Shown one piece after another: positions 1,979 to 9,863 of a stretch of 64,000 nucleotides of DNA; within the stretch, counting starts at the first letter, position 1, and every line of letters starts with the position of its first letter. Below the pieces are notes generated by a model. The model did no database searches. It saw only the letters and a list, made by a program, of their open reading frames with translations, and was not told the origin of the DNA. Both the position numbers and the translations under genes were made by a program. The DNA is taken from the NCBI RefSeq assembly GCF_003172875.1, contig NZ_QGKM01000007.1, positions 1 through 64,000 of the forward strand, given 5' to 3'. The stretch comes from Leucothrix pacifica. GTDB lineage: Bacteria; Pseudomonadota; Gammaproteobacteria; Thiotrichales; Thiotrichaceae.

Positions 1979-3145
1979 TTATAATTCATACAATAGCCCA
2001 CAAAGTTCCACCAATCCAATAGCTTCTACACCCCCTCCTTTCGGGTAGCGCTCCAATCCCGTATAAACCACAAATGCTTTACTAGGTTTAATATCATCCA
2101 CGGATATATGAAACCCTTTAGTAACCTTAGGCGCAAGACTACGTTTTATCTCTATCGCCCAAACGCCATGCTTACCGCCCAAATCCAAAAGCAGGTCAAT
2201 CTCAGCACCCGCTGAGGTACGGTAGTAACTCACTTCTGCTCGATCTGGTGCTGCCCGAATCAAACTTTCAATGACAAAACCCTCCCAACTTTCACCCGTA
2301 ATCGGGTGACTGAGAATTTCATCATAATCATCGAGCCGTAACAAAGTGTGTAACAGCCCACTGTCTCGCAGGTAAACTTTAGGGCTTTTTACCAAGCGTT
2401 TGCCTACGTTAGCGTGATAAGGCTGTAAGCGCCTGATGAGCAACAAATCAACCATTAGATCGAGATAACGTGCAACAGTCTTACCATCAACGGAAAGACT
2501 TTTCGCCAAGTTTGCAGCATTCAGTGGTGACCCCTGTAAATGCGCTAACATCGTCCAAAAACGCCTCAATGTTTCGGCAGGTATACGCGGCCCAAGTTGC
2601 GGAATATCTCGCTCCAGATAGGTTTGAATAAAGTTATTACGCCAAGTCACACTTTGCTCTTCATCAGCTGCTAGAAAACTACGGGGAAAACCGCCACGAA
2701 TCCAAAGCTCATTGATTGAAGCAGGGTCAATCTCGGCCACCTCTAAAGGTGTTAATTCGAGATATGCAATTCTTCCAGCCAAGCTTTCACTGGATTGTTT
2801 GAGTAGCTCTATAGAAGCTGAACCTAAGAGTAAAAACTGACCCGTCGTAAAACCCAATTCAATACCTTCATCGATTAAACCTCTTAAAATCTGAAATAGG
2901 TTTGGTAGGCGTTGAACTTCATCAAGAATGATCAGCTTTCCTCGGTGATGGAGTAGGTACTCACGTGCATCTGAGAGTTTTTCCAGATCTTCAGGATTCT
3001 CTAGATCAAGATAGATGCTATCGGTTTCTTTACCCAGACTTTTAGCGAGGGTTGTCTTACCTACTTGTCGAGGTCCAAGCAGTGTTACGGCAGGAAACTG
3101 GTTTAGACGCTTCCTGACTGTGGCTGTGAGTTTTCTAGATATCAT
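1979..3145 (-). CDS. AAA-type ATPase with DUF4143 domain
   Basis: A 388-residue ATP-binding protein of the AAA_14/DUF4143 family. The P-loop is visible near the N-terminus (LLGPRQVGKTTLA) and a Walker B-like stretch follows (KLIILDEVQRLP). The C-terminal half is the DUF4143 region, ending in a nuclease-like patch (TSAGAEIDLLLDL...AIEIKRS) that resembles the core of PD-(D/E)XK folds. Members are abundant in bacteria and archaea, often next to mobile DNA, and their physiological role is unsettled. The start chosen is the ATG encoding MISRKL, the usual beginning of the family; a TTG 27 bases further up (3172) is the alternative. Neither has a strong ribosome-binding site. It stands alone on the minus strand. 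Confidence 0.85.
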   Translation of the reverse strand: MISRKLTATVRKRLNQFPAVTLLGPRQVGKTTLAKSLGKETDSIYLDLENPEDLEKLSDAREYLLHHRGKLIILDEVQRLPNLFQILRGLIDEGIELGFTTGQFLLLGSASIELLKQSSESLAGRIAYLELTPLEVAEIDPASINELWIRGGFPRSFLAADEEQSVTWRNNFIQTYLERDIPQLGPRIPAETLRRFWTMLAHLQGSPLNAANLAKSLSVDGKTVARYLDLMVDLLLIRRLQPYHANVGKRLVKSPKVYLRDSGLLHTLLRLDDYDEILSHPITGESWEGFVIESLIRAAPDRAEVSYYRTSAGAEIDLLLDLGGKHGVWAIEIKRSLAPKVTKGFHISVDDIKPSKAFVVYTGLERYPKGGGVEAIGLVELCGLLYEL

Positions 3146-3227
3146 CCTTGTAATTATGGACTTTAGTGCCAAATTTGCAAGGTAGTTGTAATATCACTAC
3201 TGAAAAACTTGAGCGCAGCAGCACTAA

Positions 3228-3815: not shown

Positions 3816-4196
3816 TTATAACAGCCCTTCTTCTTCCAGGACCTTACGCGCTACCCGAAAACACTCCAGCGCCTGTGGCACGCCACAATAAATCCCCACC
3901 ACATGAATAATCGAGCGGATTTCTTCTTTAGTTACGCCATTGCTAATCGCGCCACGACAATGAATTTCCCACTCGTGCATTTTGCCCAACGCCCCGATCA
4001 TGCTGAGATTCATCATAGAACGCGTCTTAGGATCAATGGTGTCATCCCCCCAACCAAAGCCCCAGCACCACTCGGTCATAGCTTCCTGAAACGGCAGAGT
4101 AAAATCATCCGCTGCTTCCAGATTTTTTTGCACATACTCTGCGCCTAAGGTGGCTTTGCGCTGCGCCAGACCTTTCTCAAATAGCTCCTTATCCAT
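3816..4196 (-). CDS. carboxymuconolactone decarboxylase family protein (PcaC-like)
   Basis: A 126-residue all-helical protein of the CMD/AhpD superfamily. The C-terminal half carries the PcaC-like pattern HCRGAISNGVTKEEI then YCGVPQA; the CxxC pair of AhpD peroxidase partners is absent, so a decarboxylase or hydrolase-like role fits better than redox chemistry. True PcaC acts on 4-carboxymuconolactone in the protocatechuate branch, but no other pca gene is present here, so the substrate is unknown. It overlaps the end of the GntR gene by 8 bases and is presumably co-transcribed with it, away from the catabolic operon that starts at 4957. Likely an accessory enzyme of the same pathway. Confidence 0.88.
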   Translation of the reverse strand: MDKELFEKGLAQRKATLGAEYVQKNLEAADDFTLPFQEAMTEWCWGFGWGDDTIDPKTRSMMNLSMIGALGKMHEWEIHCRGAISNGVTKEEIRSIIHVVGIYCGVPQALECFRVARKVLEEEGLL

Positions 4197-4869
4197 CTAA
4201 TACATCCTCTTTGGGTTTCTGTAATTCATTGAGTGCGATCGTCATCGCTTGCTGTAAATGTTTTGCACAGGCTTCTGCTGCTGTGTCGGGGTCTTGTTGC
4301 TTAATGGCTGCGGTAATCGCCCGAAGGTTGCGCGGGCCTGCAGTAGAGCGTCCTTTTGAGCTGAGTGTGACGGCGCGTAACTGTCCAATGCGTCCGTTCA
4401 GGCGCTCAACCAAGTCCCAGGCTACCCATTTTTCACCTTCGGAGAATATCGTATGGTAGAACATGCGGGTATCTACTAATGCCTGTTTGATATCATGATC
4501 TAGCAGTGATCGGGCAATCTTATCGCAGTACGCTTCGAGTGTGGCTACCGTTGTTTCGCTGGCGATAGCGGCACAACTGGCGATCGCAGCACTTTCCAGC
4601 ATAGTACGGATTTCATAAATTTCCTGTACCTCATGCGGATTCAAAGTAGCCACTGAAGGGCCGGCATTTGGCACAACTGTAATCAGCTGCTCACTCTCTA
4701 AATGTTGAATACACTCACGAATTACCGTACGACTAACACCTAATTGTTCACAAAGCGTTCGTTCAACCAAACGCTCTCCGGGTAAAAAATAGCCCATAGT
4801 AATGGCTTCACGCAGTCGTTCCAATGAGGTTTCTTTTAAGGTTTTTGGTCGTTCTAAGCTGGTTAACAT
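4189..4869 (-). CDS. GntR-family transcriptional regulator (FadR/FCD type)
   Basis: A 226-residue regulator. Residues about 10-75 form the GntR winged helix-turn-helix (LREAITMGYFLPGERL, then EQLGVSRTVIRECIQHLESEQLI). The remaining 150 residues are helical and match the FCD ligand-binding domain (EIYEIRTMLESAAI; Asp/His metal-site type positions such as MFYHTIF). FCD members typically sense small organic acids that are pathway intermediates and repress the adjacent operon until induced. The gene diverges from the DUF1185-to-aldehyde-dehydrogenase operon, and an inverted repeat sits in the 87-bp gap. It is therefore the probable local repressor; the inducer is unknown. Confidence 0.92.
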   Translation of the reverse strand: MLTSLERPKTLKETSLERLREAITMGYFLPGERLVERTLCEQLGVSRTVIRECIQHLESEQLITVVPNAGPSVATLNPHEVQEIYEIRTMLESAAIASCAAIASETTVATLEAYCDKIARSLLDHDIKQALVDTRMFYHTIFSEGEKWVAWDLVERLNGRIGQLRAVTLSSKGRSTAGPRNLRAITAAIKQQDPDTAAEACAKHLQQAMTIALNELQKPKEDVLDG

Positions 4870-4912
4870 CTGTCGTTATCACCCATTCATTAATTGTTTG
4901 CGTTTTTGCATA

Positions 4913-4930
4913 TTGTATACCATCATACAA
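4913..4930. promoter_or_regulatory. candidate GntR operator
   Basis: TTGTAT and its exact inverse ATACAA are separated by six bases (ACCATC) in the divergent promoter gap between the GntR gene and the catabolic operon. Half-sites of this type and AT-rich spacing are typical of FCD-class GntR regulators. A GTATAC palindrome overlaps the left half. Position and symmetry are seen; binding is inferred. Confidence 0.5.
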
Positions 4931-4956
4931 AAAACAGCGACCACGAGTATTTTTGA

Positions 4957-5556
4957 ATGACACCCGATATTAGAAAAATCGTTACTTTTGAAGAAGAAGT
5001 GTTTAGCGAAGGTTTTCGTAAAGCAGACACGCCATGGCGCCTCTACGCGGTTGCAGCCGTAATCACAAACCCTTGGGCAGGTCGTTTTGTTGAGGATCTG
5101 ACTCCGGAAATTCGTGCATATGGCCCAATACTGGGTGAAATGCTAACCGAACGCATCGTCAGCTTGGCAGGTGGTGGTGATGCTATTGAAGCCTATGGGA
5201 AAGCAGGCGTCGTTGGGACTAATGGCGAGATTGAACACGCTTCCGCCCTAATTCACACGCTGCATTTTGGTAATCATTATCGCAATGCAGTGGCAGCCAA
5301 AAGCTATTTATCATTCACGAATACCCGCGGTCCGGCCAATGCGCCCATCAGCATTCCATTGATGGATAAAAATGACGCCGGGCGCCGTTCTCACTACCTG
5401 ACGATCCAATTCGCCATTCCTGATGCACCTGCACCGGATGAGGTAGTGATTGTATTGGGTGGAGCATCAGGCGGGCGACCACATCACCGCATTGGTGACC
5501 GTTACCAAGACTTAAAAGAGCTGGGTCATGACCTCGATAATCCTGCCTCGGTCTAA
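4957..5556 (+). CDS. DUF1185 / amino acid synthesis (AA_synth) family protein
   Basis: A 199-residue protein matching PF06684 (DUF1185, named AA_synth). Recognisable parts are the N-terminal TPWRLYAVAAVITNPWAGRFVEDLTPEI, the glycine-rich EAYGKAGVVGTNGEIEH, and the ending VVIVLGGASGGRPHHRIGDRYQDLKEL. Structures of this family show a variant of the Bacillus chorismate mutase fold, the fold class that also includes RidA/YjgF proteins; no biochemical activity is firmly assigned. It is the first gene of the operon and overlaps the hydrolase gene by 29 bases. The ribosome-binding site is weak. In a Rut-like scheme it could take the place of RutC; that is inference. Confidence 0.88.
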   Translation: MTPDIRKIVTFEEEVFSEGFRKADTPWRLYAVAAVITNPWAGRFVEDLTPEIRAYGPILGEMLTERIVSLAGGGDAIEAYGKAGVVGTNGEIEHASALIHTLHFGNHYRNAVAAKSYLSFTNTRGPANAPISIPLMDKNDAGRRSHYLTIQFAIPDAPAPDEVVIVLGGASGGRPHHRIGDRYQDLKELGHDLDNPASV

Positions 5557-6382
5557 AACCGACCAAGGCATCGCCTATCACCACAGTGGGAATGCAAATG
5601 GCATACCGCTGTTATTGATTCATGGCGTCGGTTTGCGCGCTGAAAGTTGGTATCAACAAATTGATGCGCTAGCACCTGACTACGATGTCTATGCAGTGGA
5701 TATGCCCGGCCATGGTGAAAGTAATATCTTGTCAGTTGAGTCAAAAGAACCGACATTAGCTGATTTTACAGACTGTTTAGCACAGTTTATGACGCAGGTC
5801 ATTGGTAAACCAGCAGTGATTATTGGTCACTCTATGGGTGCTTTACTGGCATTATCACTGGCTAAATCCTACCCTGATTTATCTCTGGCTATTGTGCCGA
5901 TGAATGCGATTTATCAGCGGAGTGATGAGGCTAAACAAGCAGTACTCAGCCGTGCCAAACACTTGCGGGAACAACCACAATCAGACCCGACTGCGCCGGT
6001 AAAACGCTGGTTTAGCGAAACGCCTTCTGCACAGGATCAGTTACACGCAGCGATGTGTTGTGAGTGGCTGCAGGGAGCCAATTTACAGGGCTATGCGGAT
6101 GCCTATACAGTATTTTCTGAAGACGATGGTTTAGCAGAATCAGAGCTACAGGCGCTTGATTTACCGTGTTTGTTCATCACCGGTGAACTGGATGCTAATT
6201 CAACACCCGATATGAGTGATACCATGGCACAGCAGCTACAACATGCAGAGTCGCTGGTGATTCAACACTCCCGCCACATGACTCCGCTCACCCACGCTGC
6301 ACCAGTAAATGATGCATTAATGATGTTTTTGCATCGGCATGTGGCCACACAAAAGACTACCCGCACGGAGGTTTCATCATGA
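5528..6382 (+). CDS. alpha/beta hydrolase
   Basis: A 284-residue alpha/beta-hydrolase-fold enzyme. The oxyanion segment LLIHGVGLRAESW is near residue 30, the nucleophile elbow GHSMGA places the catalytic Ser at about residue 102, and the late HSRHMTPLTHAAPV supplies the catalytic His. The acid is probably the Asp in TGELDANSTPD. Length and layout resemble RutD-type and 3-oxoadipate enol-lactonase-type hydrolases, so it could cleave an ester, lactone, amide or carbamate made by the monooxygenase downstream. It overlaps the previous gene by 29 bases and the next by 4, indicating translational coupling. Confidence 0.9.
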   Translation: MTSIILPRSKTDQGIAYHHSGNANGIPLLLIHGVGLRAESWYQQIDALAPDYDVYAVDMPGHGESNILSVESKEPTLADFTDCLAQFMTQVIGKPAVIIGHSMGALLALSLAKSYPDLSLAIVPMNAIYQRSDEAKQAVLSRAKHLREQPQSDPTAPVKRWFSETPSAQDQLHAAMCCEWLQGANLQGYADAYTVFSEDDGLAESELQALDLPCLFITGELDANSTPDMSDTMAQQLQHAESLVIQHSRHMTPLTHAAPVNDALMMFLHRHVATQKTTRTEVSS

Positions 6383-7308
6383 GTAATTTGGACCCCAAGG
6401 CCTTACGACAGGCATTCGGCACTTTTTTAACCGGTGTCACCGTCGTCACAGCAAAAAGCGCAAGCGGTGAATTAGTTGGCTTTACTGCAAACTCGTTTAC
6501 CTCAGTGTCGATGGAACCACCCTTATTATTAGTCTGTCCGGGAAAATCACTGGGCAGTTATCCGGTGTTTGAAAATTGCAGCCACTTTGCGGTGAATGTA
6601 CTGGCACAGGATCAACAAGATATTTCCAATCATTTCGCAAGCTTTGATGGAGATCGCTTTGCCGATGTTGACTGGCAAGCCGATGAGTTTGGTACACCAA
6701 TCCTCACGGGTGCAAGCACACACTTTTCCTGCAGTACTCACCAACGCGTCGATGCCGGTGATCACATGGTGCTGTTCGGCGAAATTCAGGCTTTTAGCAG
6801 CACGGGTGACGAAGGCTTAGGCTACTCCAACCAAGGGTATTTCAGCTTAGGTTTAGAGCGTGGTGCTGGTGAAGCGCCTGCCACTGTGCGCTCCTTTAGA
6901 GTGGGCGCGATTGTTGAGGCAGATGGCGCCATTCTGGTGAAGGGGTCAGAACAGGGGCTGCGCCTGCCAACCGTGGAAGTACAAAGTCGTACCGGTGCCT
7001 TAGCTGCGATTCGTGAGCATTTTAAACAGGCTAACCTGCCCGTCGAACTGGGCCCTGCGTATTCTATCTTTGATAACCCGAAAACGGGTGACTACTCTGT
7101 GTATTTTCGCGCAAGTTGCGATGAAGCAGTGGCAACTGACTATGGCACCTTTACCCCGTTGGATTCACTGGCTGATGCCAAACTGGCCTCTGAGCCAGTT
7201 AAAAATATGTTAAATCGATATGCGCTGGAACGCCATACCGGCGTGTTTGGCTTGTACTTGGGTGATGAACAAGACGGAGAAGTACACACCCTGCATCCCG
7301 GAGGTTAA
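6379..7308 (+). CDS. flavin reductase with extra C-terminal domain
   Basis: A 309-residue protein. Residues about 8-165 are a flavin reductase of the HpaC/RutF type (ALRQAFGTFLTGVTVVTAKS, then VGFTANSFTSVSMEPPLLLVC and FAVNVLAQDQQDISNHFAS), which supplies reduced FMN to a partner monooxygenase. Stand-alone reductases of this type are about 160-180 residues, so the remaining 140 residues are an additional domain; its GAILVKGSEQGLRLPTVEV start vaguely resembles a Nudix-like fold without a complete Nudix box. It lies directly before the luciferase-like oxygenase, its expected partner, and overlaps the hydrolase gene by ATGA. Confidence 0.9.
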   Translation: MSNLDPKALRQAFGTFLTGVTVVTAKSASGELVGFTANSFTSVSMEPPLLLVCPGKSLGSYPVFENCSHFAVNVLAQDQQDISNHFASFDGDRFADVDWQADEFGTPILTGASTHFSCSTHQRVDAGDHMVLFGEIQAFSSTGDEGLGYSNQGYFSLGLERGAGEAPATVRSFRVGAIVEADGAILVKGSEQGLRLPTVEVQSRTGALAAIREHFKQANLPVELGPAYSIFDNPKTGDYSVYFRASCDEAVATDYGTFTPLDSLADAKLASEPVKNMLNRYALERHTGVFGLYLGDEQDGEVHTLHPGG

Positions 7309-7311
7309 CTC

Positions 7312-8349
7312 ATGAAATTCTCACTGTTTGCGCACATGGAGCGTGTCACTACGGGCGCGACTCATCGTGAGCTCTACAATGAATTTGTAACTCTGTGTGA
7401 AATGGCAGACCGTGGCGGTATGCACGCCATATGGACTGGTGAGCACCACGGCATGGAATTCACCATTGCCCCCAACCCGTTTACGACACTGGTGGATTTA
7501 GCCCATCGCACAAAGCAGGTTCGACTAGGGACTGGCACGGTGATCGCACCATTCTGGCATCCCATCAAACTTGCCGGTGAAGCCGCTATGACCGATGTAT
7601 TGACAGGTGGACGATTAGATGTCGGCATTGCCCGCGGCGCTTATAGCTATGAATACGAACGCATTATGCCCGGTATGGATGCCTGGGAAGCGGGTCAACG
7701 CATGCGTGAGATCGTGCCTGCCGTACAGCAGCTATGGAAGGGCGACTATGCGCATGACGGTGAATTCTACCAATTTCCTGCCAGTACCAGCGCACCCAAG
7801 CCATTACAGGATGGCGGACCACCTCTGTGGGTTGCTGCACGAGACCCTAATAGCCATGAGTTTGCTGTAGCCAATGGCTGCAATGTGCAAGTCACCCCCC
7901 TCTGGTTAGGGATCGAAGAAATAGAGAACCTAATGAAGTGCTTCAAAGATGCTTGTGAAAAGCATCAGCAAGTCGCTCGCCCAAAAATCATGTTATTGCA
8001 GCATACTTATGTTGGCAAAGACGAAGCCGCTGTGATTGCCGCCTCCAAACGCTTAAGCCGTTTTTATTGTTACTTCGGCTCATGGTTTAGAAACCAGCGC
8101 CCGGTCACTCAGGGTCAAATCAAAACCTTATCGCAAGAAGAAATGGATGCGATGGAAATGTATAGCCCTGAAAACATGCGTAAAAACCTACTGATCGGCA
8201 CCTCACAACAAGTGATTGACCGACTCAAGCATTATGAAGATTTAGGCTATGACGAATTCTCATTCTGGATTGATTCCGGCATGAGTAGTGCCGACAAGCG
8301 CGAATCCTTAGCCCGTTTTATTGATGAAGTTATGCCAGCCTTTAGCTGA
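7312..8349 (+). CDS. LLM-class flavin-dependent monooxygenase
   Basis: A 345-residue luciferase-like (bacterial-luciferase TIM barrel) enzyme. Characteristic segments are WTGEHHGMEF near residue 45, LGTGTVIAPFWHPIKLAGEAAMTDVLTGGRL at about 72-103 and a C-terminal LIGTSQQVIDRL. Such enzymes use FMNH2 delivered by a reductase and O2 to oxidise small substrates, including oxidative ring opening (RutA) and desulfonation (SsuD). The reductase ends three bases before this gene, and a GGAGG site precedes the ATG. The substrate cannot be read from the sequence. It is the presumed first enzyme of the pathway. Confidence 0.93.
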   Translation: MKFSLFAHMERVTTGATHRELYNEFVTLCEMADRGGMHAIWTGEHHGMEFTIAPNPFTTLVDLAHRTKQVRLGTGTVIAPFWHPIKLAGEAAMTDVLTGGRLDVGIARGAYSYEYERIMPGMDAWEAGQRMREIVPAVQQLWKGDYAHDGEFYQFPASTSAPKPLQDGGPPLWVAARDPNSHEFAVANGCNVQVTPLWLGIEEIENLMKCFKDACEKHQQVARPKIMLLQHTYVGKDEAAVIAASKRLSRFYCYFGSWFRNQRPVTQGQIKTLSQEEMDAMEMYSPENMRKNLLIGTSQQVIDRLKHYEDLGYDEFSFWIDSGMSSADKRESLARFIDEVMPAFS

Positions 8350-8375
8350 AACCACCGCCCGCAGGAGCACCCACT

Positions 8376-9863
8376 ATGAGCACACAATTACCGATGTTTC
8401 AGTTATATATCGATGGCCAATGGACGGATGGCAGCACCGGACAAACCATGAGCAGCATCAACCCTGCCACCGGCGAGGCGTGGGCAAACTTTGCCTGCAC
8501 CAGTAAGGAAGATGTCAATCGCGCCATTAGCGCTGCACGTCGGGCACTCAATGAAGGTGAGTGGCCAGCAATGACCGCCACACAGCGCGGGAAATTGCTG
8601 TACAAATTAGCGGATTTAATCGAAGAACACGCGCAAGCACTCGGTGAATTAGAAACCAAAGACAGCGGGAAATTACTGGCTGAAACCAAAATGCAAACTG
8701 GTTATGTCGCGGACTACTACCGCTATTACGCCGGTCTCGCTGACAAGATTCAGGGTGCAACCTTACCGATTGATAAGCCGGACATGCACGTCTTTACCTC
8801 ACGCGAACCGATTGGTGTGGTGGCTGCGATTGTGCCATGGAATGCACAGATGTTTTTAACCGCTACAAAGCTTGGACCAGCTTTAGCGGCAGGCTGCACG
8901 GTGGTACTTAAAGCCTCAGAAATCTCACCGGTTTCTATGCTGGAATTTGCACGTTTAATTGAGCAGGCAGGCTTTCCGGCAGGTGTGGTATCAGTGATTA
9001 CCGGTGATGCTGAGAACTGTGCAATTCCACTGACTAGTCACCCGGATATTGACCGTATTGCTTTCACTGGTGGCCCTGATACAGCGCGTCATGTGGTACG
9101 CAACTCAGCGAATAACTTTGCCGTCACTACACTGGAATTAGGCGGCAAGTCACCGATTCTGGTGTTTGATGATGCAGATTTAGACAGTGCAGCGAATGGC
9201 CTAATTGCCGGTAATTTCGGAGCATCCGGTCAGTCTTGTGTGGCAGGTTCGCGTGCTTTTGTGCAGCGCTCGGTGAAAGACAAACTCATCGCCCTGATTA
9301 AAGAAAAAGCAGCGTCTATTGTTATAGGTGATCCGCTGGATGCCAACAGTCATGTCGGACCACTTTGCACTGAAACACAGGTTGAGCGCATTGAAGACAC
9401 ACTAGAAAAAGCCCAAGCGCAGGGAGCCAATATTGTGTTTGGTGGCATGCGTCCTGAAGGCTTGGAGCAGGGCAATTACTTTAGCCCGACACTAGTGGAG
9501 TGCCCTGATGACCAAACTGAAACGCTGACCGTTGAGATGTTTGGGCCGGTGATGTCAATCGTGCCGTTTGATAACGAAGACGAAGCCATTGCCATGGCCA
9601 ATGACAGTGTTTACGGGCTTGGTTCAGGCATCTTTACGCAGAACTTGGCACGGGCACACCGTGTGTCAAAGAAGATTAAGGCAGGGATTTGCTGGGTAAA
9701 TACGTATCGGGCGATATCACCAATTGCGCCATTTGGGGGTTATGGTGACTCCGGTTATGGGCGTGAGGCAGGGTTAGATGCGGTGTTGGATTACACCAAT
9801 ACTAAAACGACCTGGATTAATACCTCGGATGCGCCGATGGCTAATCCGTTTGTGATGCGGTGA
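8376..9863 (+). CDS. NAD(P)-dependent aldehyde dehydrogenase
   Basis: A 495-residue ALDH-superfamily enzyme of normal length. The general base Glu254 is in TLELGGKSP and the catalytic Cys288 in GQSCVAG; the cofactor-binding segment PWNAQMFLTATKLGPALAAGC and the C-terminal FGGYGDSGYGREAG are present. It would convert an aldehyde released by the monooxygenase/hydrolase steps into a carboxylate for central metabolism. Last gene of the operon, 26 bp after the monooxygenase, with an AGGAG ribosome-binding site. General sequence style is that of betaine-/semialdehyde-type ALDHs; the actual aldehyde is unknown. Confidence 0.94.
   Translation: MSTQLPMFQLYIDGQWTDGSTGQTMSSINPATGEAWANFACTSKEDVNRAISAARRALNEGEWPAMTATQRGKLLYKLADLIEEHAQALGELETKDSGKLLAETKMQTGYVADYYRYYAGLADKIQGATLPIDKPDMHVFTSREPIGVVAAIVPWNAQMFLTATKLGPALAAGCTVVLKASEISPVSMLEFARLIEQAGFPAGVVSVITGDAENCAIPLTSHPDIDRIAFTGGPDTARHVVRNSANNFAVTTLELGGKSPILVFDDADLDSAANGLIAGNFGASGQSCVAGSRAFVQRSVKDKLIALIKEKAASIVIGDPLDANSHVGPLCTETQVERIEDTLEKAQAQGANIVFGGMRPEGLEQGNYFSPTLVECPDDQTETLTVEMFGPVMSIVPFDNEDEAIAMANDSVYGLGSGIFTQNLARAHRVSKKIKAGICWVNTYRAISPIAPFGGYGDSGYGREAGLDAVLDYTNTKTTWINTSDAPMANPFVMR

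Follow-up and report, generated by a model that had tools for sequence, protein, structure and literature searches.

The seven genes at positions 3816-9863 of a 64,000-nucleotide stretch of the Leucothrix pacifica genome (assembly GCF_003172875.1, contig NZ_QGKM01000007.1, positions 1-64,000 of the forward strand, hereafter the window) are, judged by their kinship, a trigonelline-type (tgn) operon. Pathways of this type have already been described, and the L. pacifica copy belongs to a separate sister subclade. Plants and algae widely use trigonelline as an osmolyte, and we infer that it is probably the substrate of this catabolic operon. Our reading is based on orthology-level kinship, gene order, a shared operator sequence and the presence of a succinate semialdehyde dehydrogenase (SSADH) gene. 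This subtype adds a further bacterial branch to those with a tgn operon.

An earlier note on this DNA listed the seven genes with their strands and overlaps. That layout holds: all seven reading frames are open, the coordinates are correct, and the Pfam scores of all seven families are far over the cut-offs. The forward strand encodes a DUF1185/AA_synth protein of the TgnF type (4957-5556; PF06684, 239 bits), an alpha/beta hydrolase in the TgnD position (5528-6382; Abhydrolase_1, 85 bits), a flavin reductase with a C-terminal extension that corresponds to TgnA (6379-7308; Flavin_Reduct, 137 bits), a luciferase-like (LLM) oxygenase of the TgnB type (7312-8349; Bac_luciferase, 182 bits) and an aldehyde dehydrogenase (ALDH) of the TgnC type (8376-9863; Aldedh, 540 bits). 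The reverse strand encodes a GntR/FCD regulator (4189-4869; FCD 66 bits, GntR 53 bits), the counterpart of the tgn-cluster regulator, and a CMD-family protein (3816-4196; CMD, 67 bits). Gene overlaps are 8, 29 and 4 bp and the remaining gaps 3 and 26 bp, with 87 bp between the divergent GntR and DUF1185 genes.

An LLM oxygenase, an HpaC/C1-type reductase, an ALDH, an alpha/beta hydrolase and a DUF1185 protein are presumably the parts of the trigonelline pathway of Acinetobacter baylyi, which was reportedly worked out by Perchat and colleagues in 2018. On a plasmid of Acinetobacter sp. PK01, a DUF1185 gene (annotated as ‘amino acid synthesis family protein’) and a hydrolase gene are directly followed by genes that RefSeq names tgnA, tgnB and tgnC, with SSADH and CMD genes downstream. 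Over their full lengths, the window proteins are identical to those of PK01 at 66% (LLM), 58% (ALDH), 68% (DUF1185), 38% (reductase) and 37% (hydrolase) of positions, and the GntR and CMD proteins at 42% and 52%. The cluster of A. baylyi DSM 14961 has the identical order, and here the identities are 67% for the LLM protein, 64% for DUF1185, 55% for the ALDH, 45% for GntR, 36% for the reductase and 35% for the hydrolase. The GntR gene is divergent from the DUF1185 gene in both Acinetobacter clusters. The window thus shares gene families, order, regulator family, divergent layout and operator sequence with tgnABCDEF of A. baylyi, but lacks a linked SSADH gene (TgnE), a transporter gene and a DUF1330 gene.

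A scan of genome contigs gave 80 named tgn loci, including that of A. baylyi DSM 14961, which were picked by LLM similarity and not by their neighbours. They hold DUF1185 in 78 cases, the hydrolase in 79, the reductase in 78, and the LLM and ALDH genes in all 80. Among the 62 loci with both 8-kb flanks, DUF1185, hydrolase, LLM and ALDH genes are found in every one, the reductase gene in 61 and the GntR gene in 60. Co-occurrence of the five structural genes, a point on which the earlier note had staked its reading of them as one pathway, is therefore well established. Nearly all of the 80 loci have the order DUF1185-hydrolase-reductase-oxygenase-ALDH, and a GntR gene usually diverges from it; in the window the TgnA-, TgnC-, TgnD- and TgnF-type genes likewise stand in one operon in tgn order. 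A maximum-likelihood tree built from 59 LLM proteins places the window oxygenase inside a 43-row clade (support 100/99) with A. baylyi TgnB and its relatives; two more distant groups lie outside.

The divergent gap carries further evidence. The 12-mer ATTGTATACCAT (4912-4923, forward strand) is found in identical form upstream of DUF1185 (tgnF) in A. baylyi, and we regard it as the putative operator of the GntR/FCD protein. Of 83 tgn loci, 74 have a GTATAC core upstream of DUF1185, most commonly in the form ATGGTATACCAT, where shuffled sequences predict 4.1; these loci are related by descent and do not count as independent. In the 5-Mb genome, ATKGTATACMAT occurs at one place, the divergent gap. 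The regulator and its candidate operator are thus both there, and gene order together with the operator ATKGTATACCAT would give a genome-readable marker of the subtype. The motif is absent from all eight roseobacter loci of the window subtype, where a LysR gene (confirmed by Pfam for one) takes the place of GntR. The single divergent promoter proposed earlier survives as a gap with a conserved operator-like 12-mer; no sigma-70 consensus was found in its 87 bp, and a single promoter there is presumed.

The following scheme would apply in L. pacifica, the chemistry being that which Perchat and colleagues are said to have set out in 2018. The TgnA-type reductase would supply reduced flavin, with which the TgnB-type oxygenase would cleave the N-methylnicotinate ring next to the nitrogen, without prior hydroxylation, to give an N-methylformamido aldehyde or lactol. 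This product may then be oxidised by the TgnC-type ALDH to a succinate derivative, which the TgnD-type hydrolase is predicted to split into methylamine, formate, CO2 and succinate semialdehyde. An SSADH encoded elsewhere in the genome would send the carbon to the tricarboxylic acid cycle. The TgnF-type DUF1185 protein may assist, probably at the hydrolase step, and the divergent GntR/FCD protein is expected to control the set from its site at 4912-4923. Much of what the earlier note had proposed in general terms is retained here, namely a dedicated, GntR-run oxidative route in which a two-component flavin oxygenase opens a small N-heterocycle and an ALDH oxidises the aldehyde. What is lost is its novelty, as the route is of the tgn type.

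Details of the individual enzymes are consistent with these assignments. The hydrolase keeps a GHSMG nucleophile motif and the C-terminal His region. The ALDH is 58% identical to the RefSeq-named TgnC, against 35% to the SSADH of the same cluster. The reductase matches PDB 3rh7 over its full length and, with its N-terminal part, the reductase C1 of p-hydroxyphenylacetate 3-hydroxylase (5zc2). Like C1, it joins a flavin-reductase domain to a C-terminal extension in about 310 residues, but the PDB similarity to C1 is limited to the N-terminal 157 residues and the partner oxygenase of C1 is unrelated to LLM proteins. The gene at 3816-4196, earlier called PcaC-like, does belong to the CMD family; it scores 120 bits against the PcaC equivalog cut-off of 155.7, and so is PcaC-like but not PcaC. 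A CMD gene is present in 25 of the 62 full-flank tgn loci.

An SSADH over the curated cut-off is encoded on another contig (G000:C54), unlinked to the operon, and is 59% identical to the SSADH of the tgn cluster. Candidates for a transporter were a 103-residue NCS1 permease fragment and BCCT genes, all of which are unlinked and were set aside. The NCS1 fragment (cytosine/purine-type; L174, G000:C110, 700-1011) lies beside a DUF6444 open reading frame and may be an interrupted transporter gene; NCS1 permeases are found beside tgn genes in 22 of the 62 loci. Genes on contigs C110 and C2 that resemble N-methylglutamate dehydrogenase (Mgd) were rejected as Mgd, as they are sarcosine oxidase by the curated cut-off (tested on the C110 copy).

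Several results weigh against trigonelline as the substrate. The operon has no linked transporter, SSADH or methylamine genes, and no close Mgd homologue was found in the genome, the nearest relatives of the Mgd-like genes that adjoin the Acinetobacter cluster scoring as sarcosine oxidase. The window oxygenase is placed in a 9-row subclade (99/92) that is separate from A. baylyi, where it stands with genomes from its genus and its family, with two others of the same class and with four of the roseobacter family. We also counted departures from columns that are at least 90% conserved across 82-84 tgn loci, using the leave-one-out counts of the members as a yardstick. The hydrolase departs at 31 of 92 columns (members' maximum 26) and the ALDH at 56 of 269 (maximum 37), both over any member, although selecting the yardstick group for similarity to PK01 TgnB makes the members' counts lower. 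Because these two enzymes depart further than in all members, the product that is handled downstream might differ. The other departures are 18 of 195 for the LLM protein (maximum 16), 9 of 104 for DUF1185 (maximum 10) and 25 of 94 for the reductase (maximum 23). By this measure the oxygenase that opens the ring stays near the tgn proteins, and the ALDH and hydrolase have moved away.

Could the same machinery open another N-methylpyridinium acid? Homarine (N-methylpicolinate) or a further pyridinium betaine might be opened likewise by an operon whose ALDH and hydrolase have become adapted to the other skeleton; we think this unlikely, but worth weighing. The distinct subclade and the coherent divergence of these two enzymes speak for it. 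Moreover, a separate homarine pathway of environmental bacteria, in which Mgd takes part, has been reported (Ferrer-Gonzalez et al. 2026, as cited in PMC13390433). Its substrate is an isomeric N-methylpyridine carboxylate and the chemistry may be related, but the L. pacifica genome has no clear Mgd, its closest homologues lying over the sarcosine oxidase cut-off. At conserved positions the oxygenase departs little more than members of the tgn group do, and the tgn regulator and operator are kept in the window, all of which argue against this rival. The distribution of the ALDH subtypes points the same way: about 20 of 296 roseobacter-family genomes have the window type (70-77% identity) and about 30 the tgn type (57-60%), a split made by identity only, and none has both, where about two would be expected by chance (P ~0.1), which weakly favours interchangeable function. 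In the roseobacter loci of subtype II, no conserved neighbours that would name a substrate were found beyond the core and the LysR gene, a search limited by crude gene calling in GC-rich loci.

The role of DUF1185 deserves separate discussion. Structures of this family have been solved. By alignment, the window protein retains the residues that match the conserved Glu, His and Arg positions of BB2672 (PMC2954203). The family member TgnF has been reported to stimulate TgnE-dependent oxidation of succinate semialdehyde (PMC7913881). However, the DUF1185 gene adjoins the hydrolase gene in 61 of the 62 full-flank tgn loci, whereas an SSADH gene is found within 8 kb in 21 of the 62 and never adjoins DUF1185. 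From this linkage we infer that DUF1185 probably acts with the hydrolase step and not in succinate semialdehyde oxidation, and since the gene is tied to the hydrolase gene and not to that of SSADH, the reported role of TgnF deserves a second look. The linkage pattern makes this unsettled role testable and points to the hydrolase step, where a RidA-like enamine hydrolysis would be chemically reasonable. DUF1185 does not serve to mark such operons in general: among 30 DUF1185 loci, the window included, the hydrolase is beside it only in loci at least 60% like the window DUF1185, and the group at 36-41% identity lacks a hydrolase neighbour. A bolder proposal, which strikes us as rather improbable, combines these points. 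The window subtype would then be a functionally distinct branch in which the oxygenase is conserved, the ALDH and hydrolase are retuned for another N-methylpyridinium acid, and DUF1185, though of an unrelated sequence family, takes on RidA-like work by resolving the N-methyl enamine or acid that the hydrolase leaves behind.

We see little to recommend the idea that an operon of tgn descent has lost or shifted its function and is kept for N-methylpyridinium detoxification rather than growth; the missing transporter and SSADH linkage and the patchy occurrence (3 of 57 relatives) would fit, but all reading frames are intact, the operator is kept, and a same-genus genome has the same gene order at identities of 65-92%.

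The Rut-like or otherwise unfamiliar pathway of oxidative C-N or C-S cleavage that the earlier note had put forward is hardly credible. The superfamilies of RutA, RutD and RutF are indeed represented, as in Escherichia coli, but the window has no orthologue of RutA, RutB or RutC, and RutE and RutG are missing as well. Identities are 26% over 145 residues (LLM and RutA), 24% over 119 (hydrolase and RutD) and 32% over 160 (reductase and RutF), with tgn relatives far closer. The model scores are 56 bits for RutD (cut-off 238.5) and 94 bits for RutF (cut-off 254.75), and RutA and SsuD are remote from the window oxygenase. Any kinship to Rut is therefore at the superfamily level only. DUF1185, once suggested as a stand-in for RutC, is the TgnF family, and pairwise comparison gave no match to RutC. 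Since the tree places the oxygenase inside the A. baylyi TgnB clade, the outcome that the earlier note had itself named as contrary to its proposal, the Rut-like reading is abandoned.

The surroundings of the operon suggest mobility. A DDE transposase gene (120-1475) and a DUF4143 AAA ATPase gene (1979-3172) lie just ahead of it, and in the same-genus genome (L123) it is flanked by other neighbours; together with the patchiness noted above, this is what the suggestion is based on.

Some variants of related loci may interest others. A distant LLM clade, 38-40% identical to the window protein (L034/L185 in G701, L011/L186 in G329, L197 in G821), lies beside DUF1185, hydrolase and ALDH genes of its own, most clearly at L011 and L034, and may act on a related N-heterocycle; genome G821 holds a member of this clade as well as the window subtype. 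A DUF1330 gene, which the window operon lacks, is present in 52 of the 62 full-flank tgn loci, and in two annotated examples (L035, L039) is divergent and beside GntR. On a plasmid of Mesorhizobium ciceri WSM1271 (L040, 7205-9004) the tgn-type hydrolase and flavin reductase are fused into one protein of 600 residues. Finally, a plasmid of Arthrobacter dokdonellae (L038, 4569-10068) carries a tgn-like operon in which two DUF1185 genes stand in tandem and the LLM gene is preceded by a gene of the tautomerase family; genes for a cytosine permease, an SSADH and a riboflavin kinase lie nearby.

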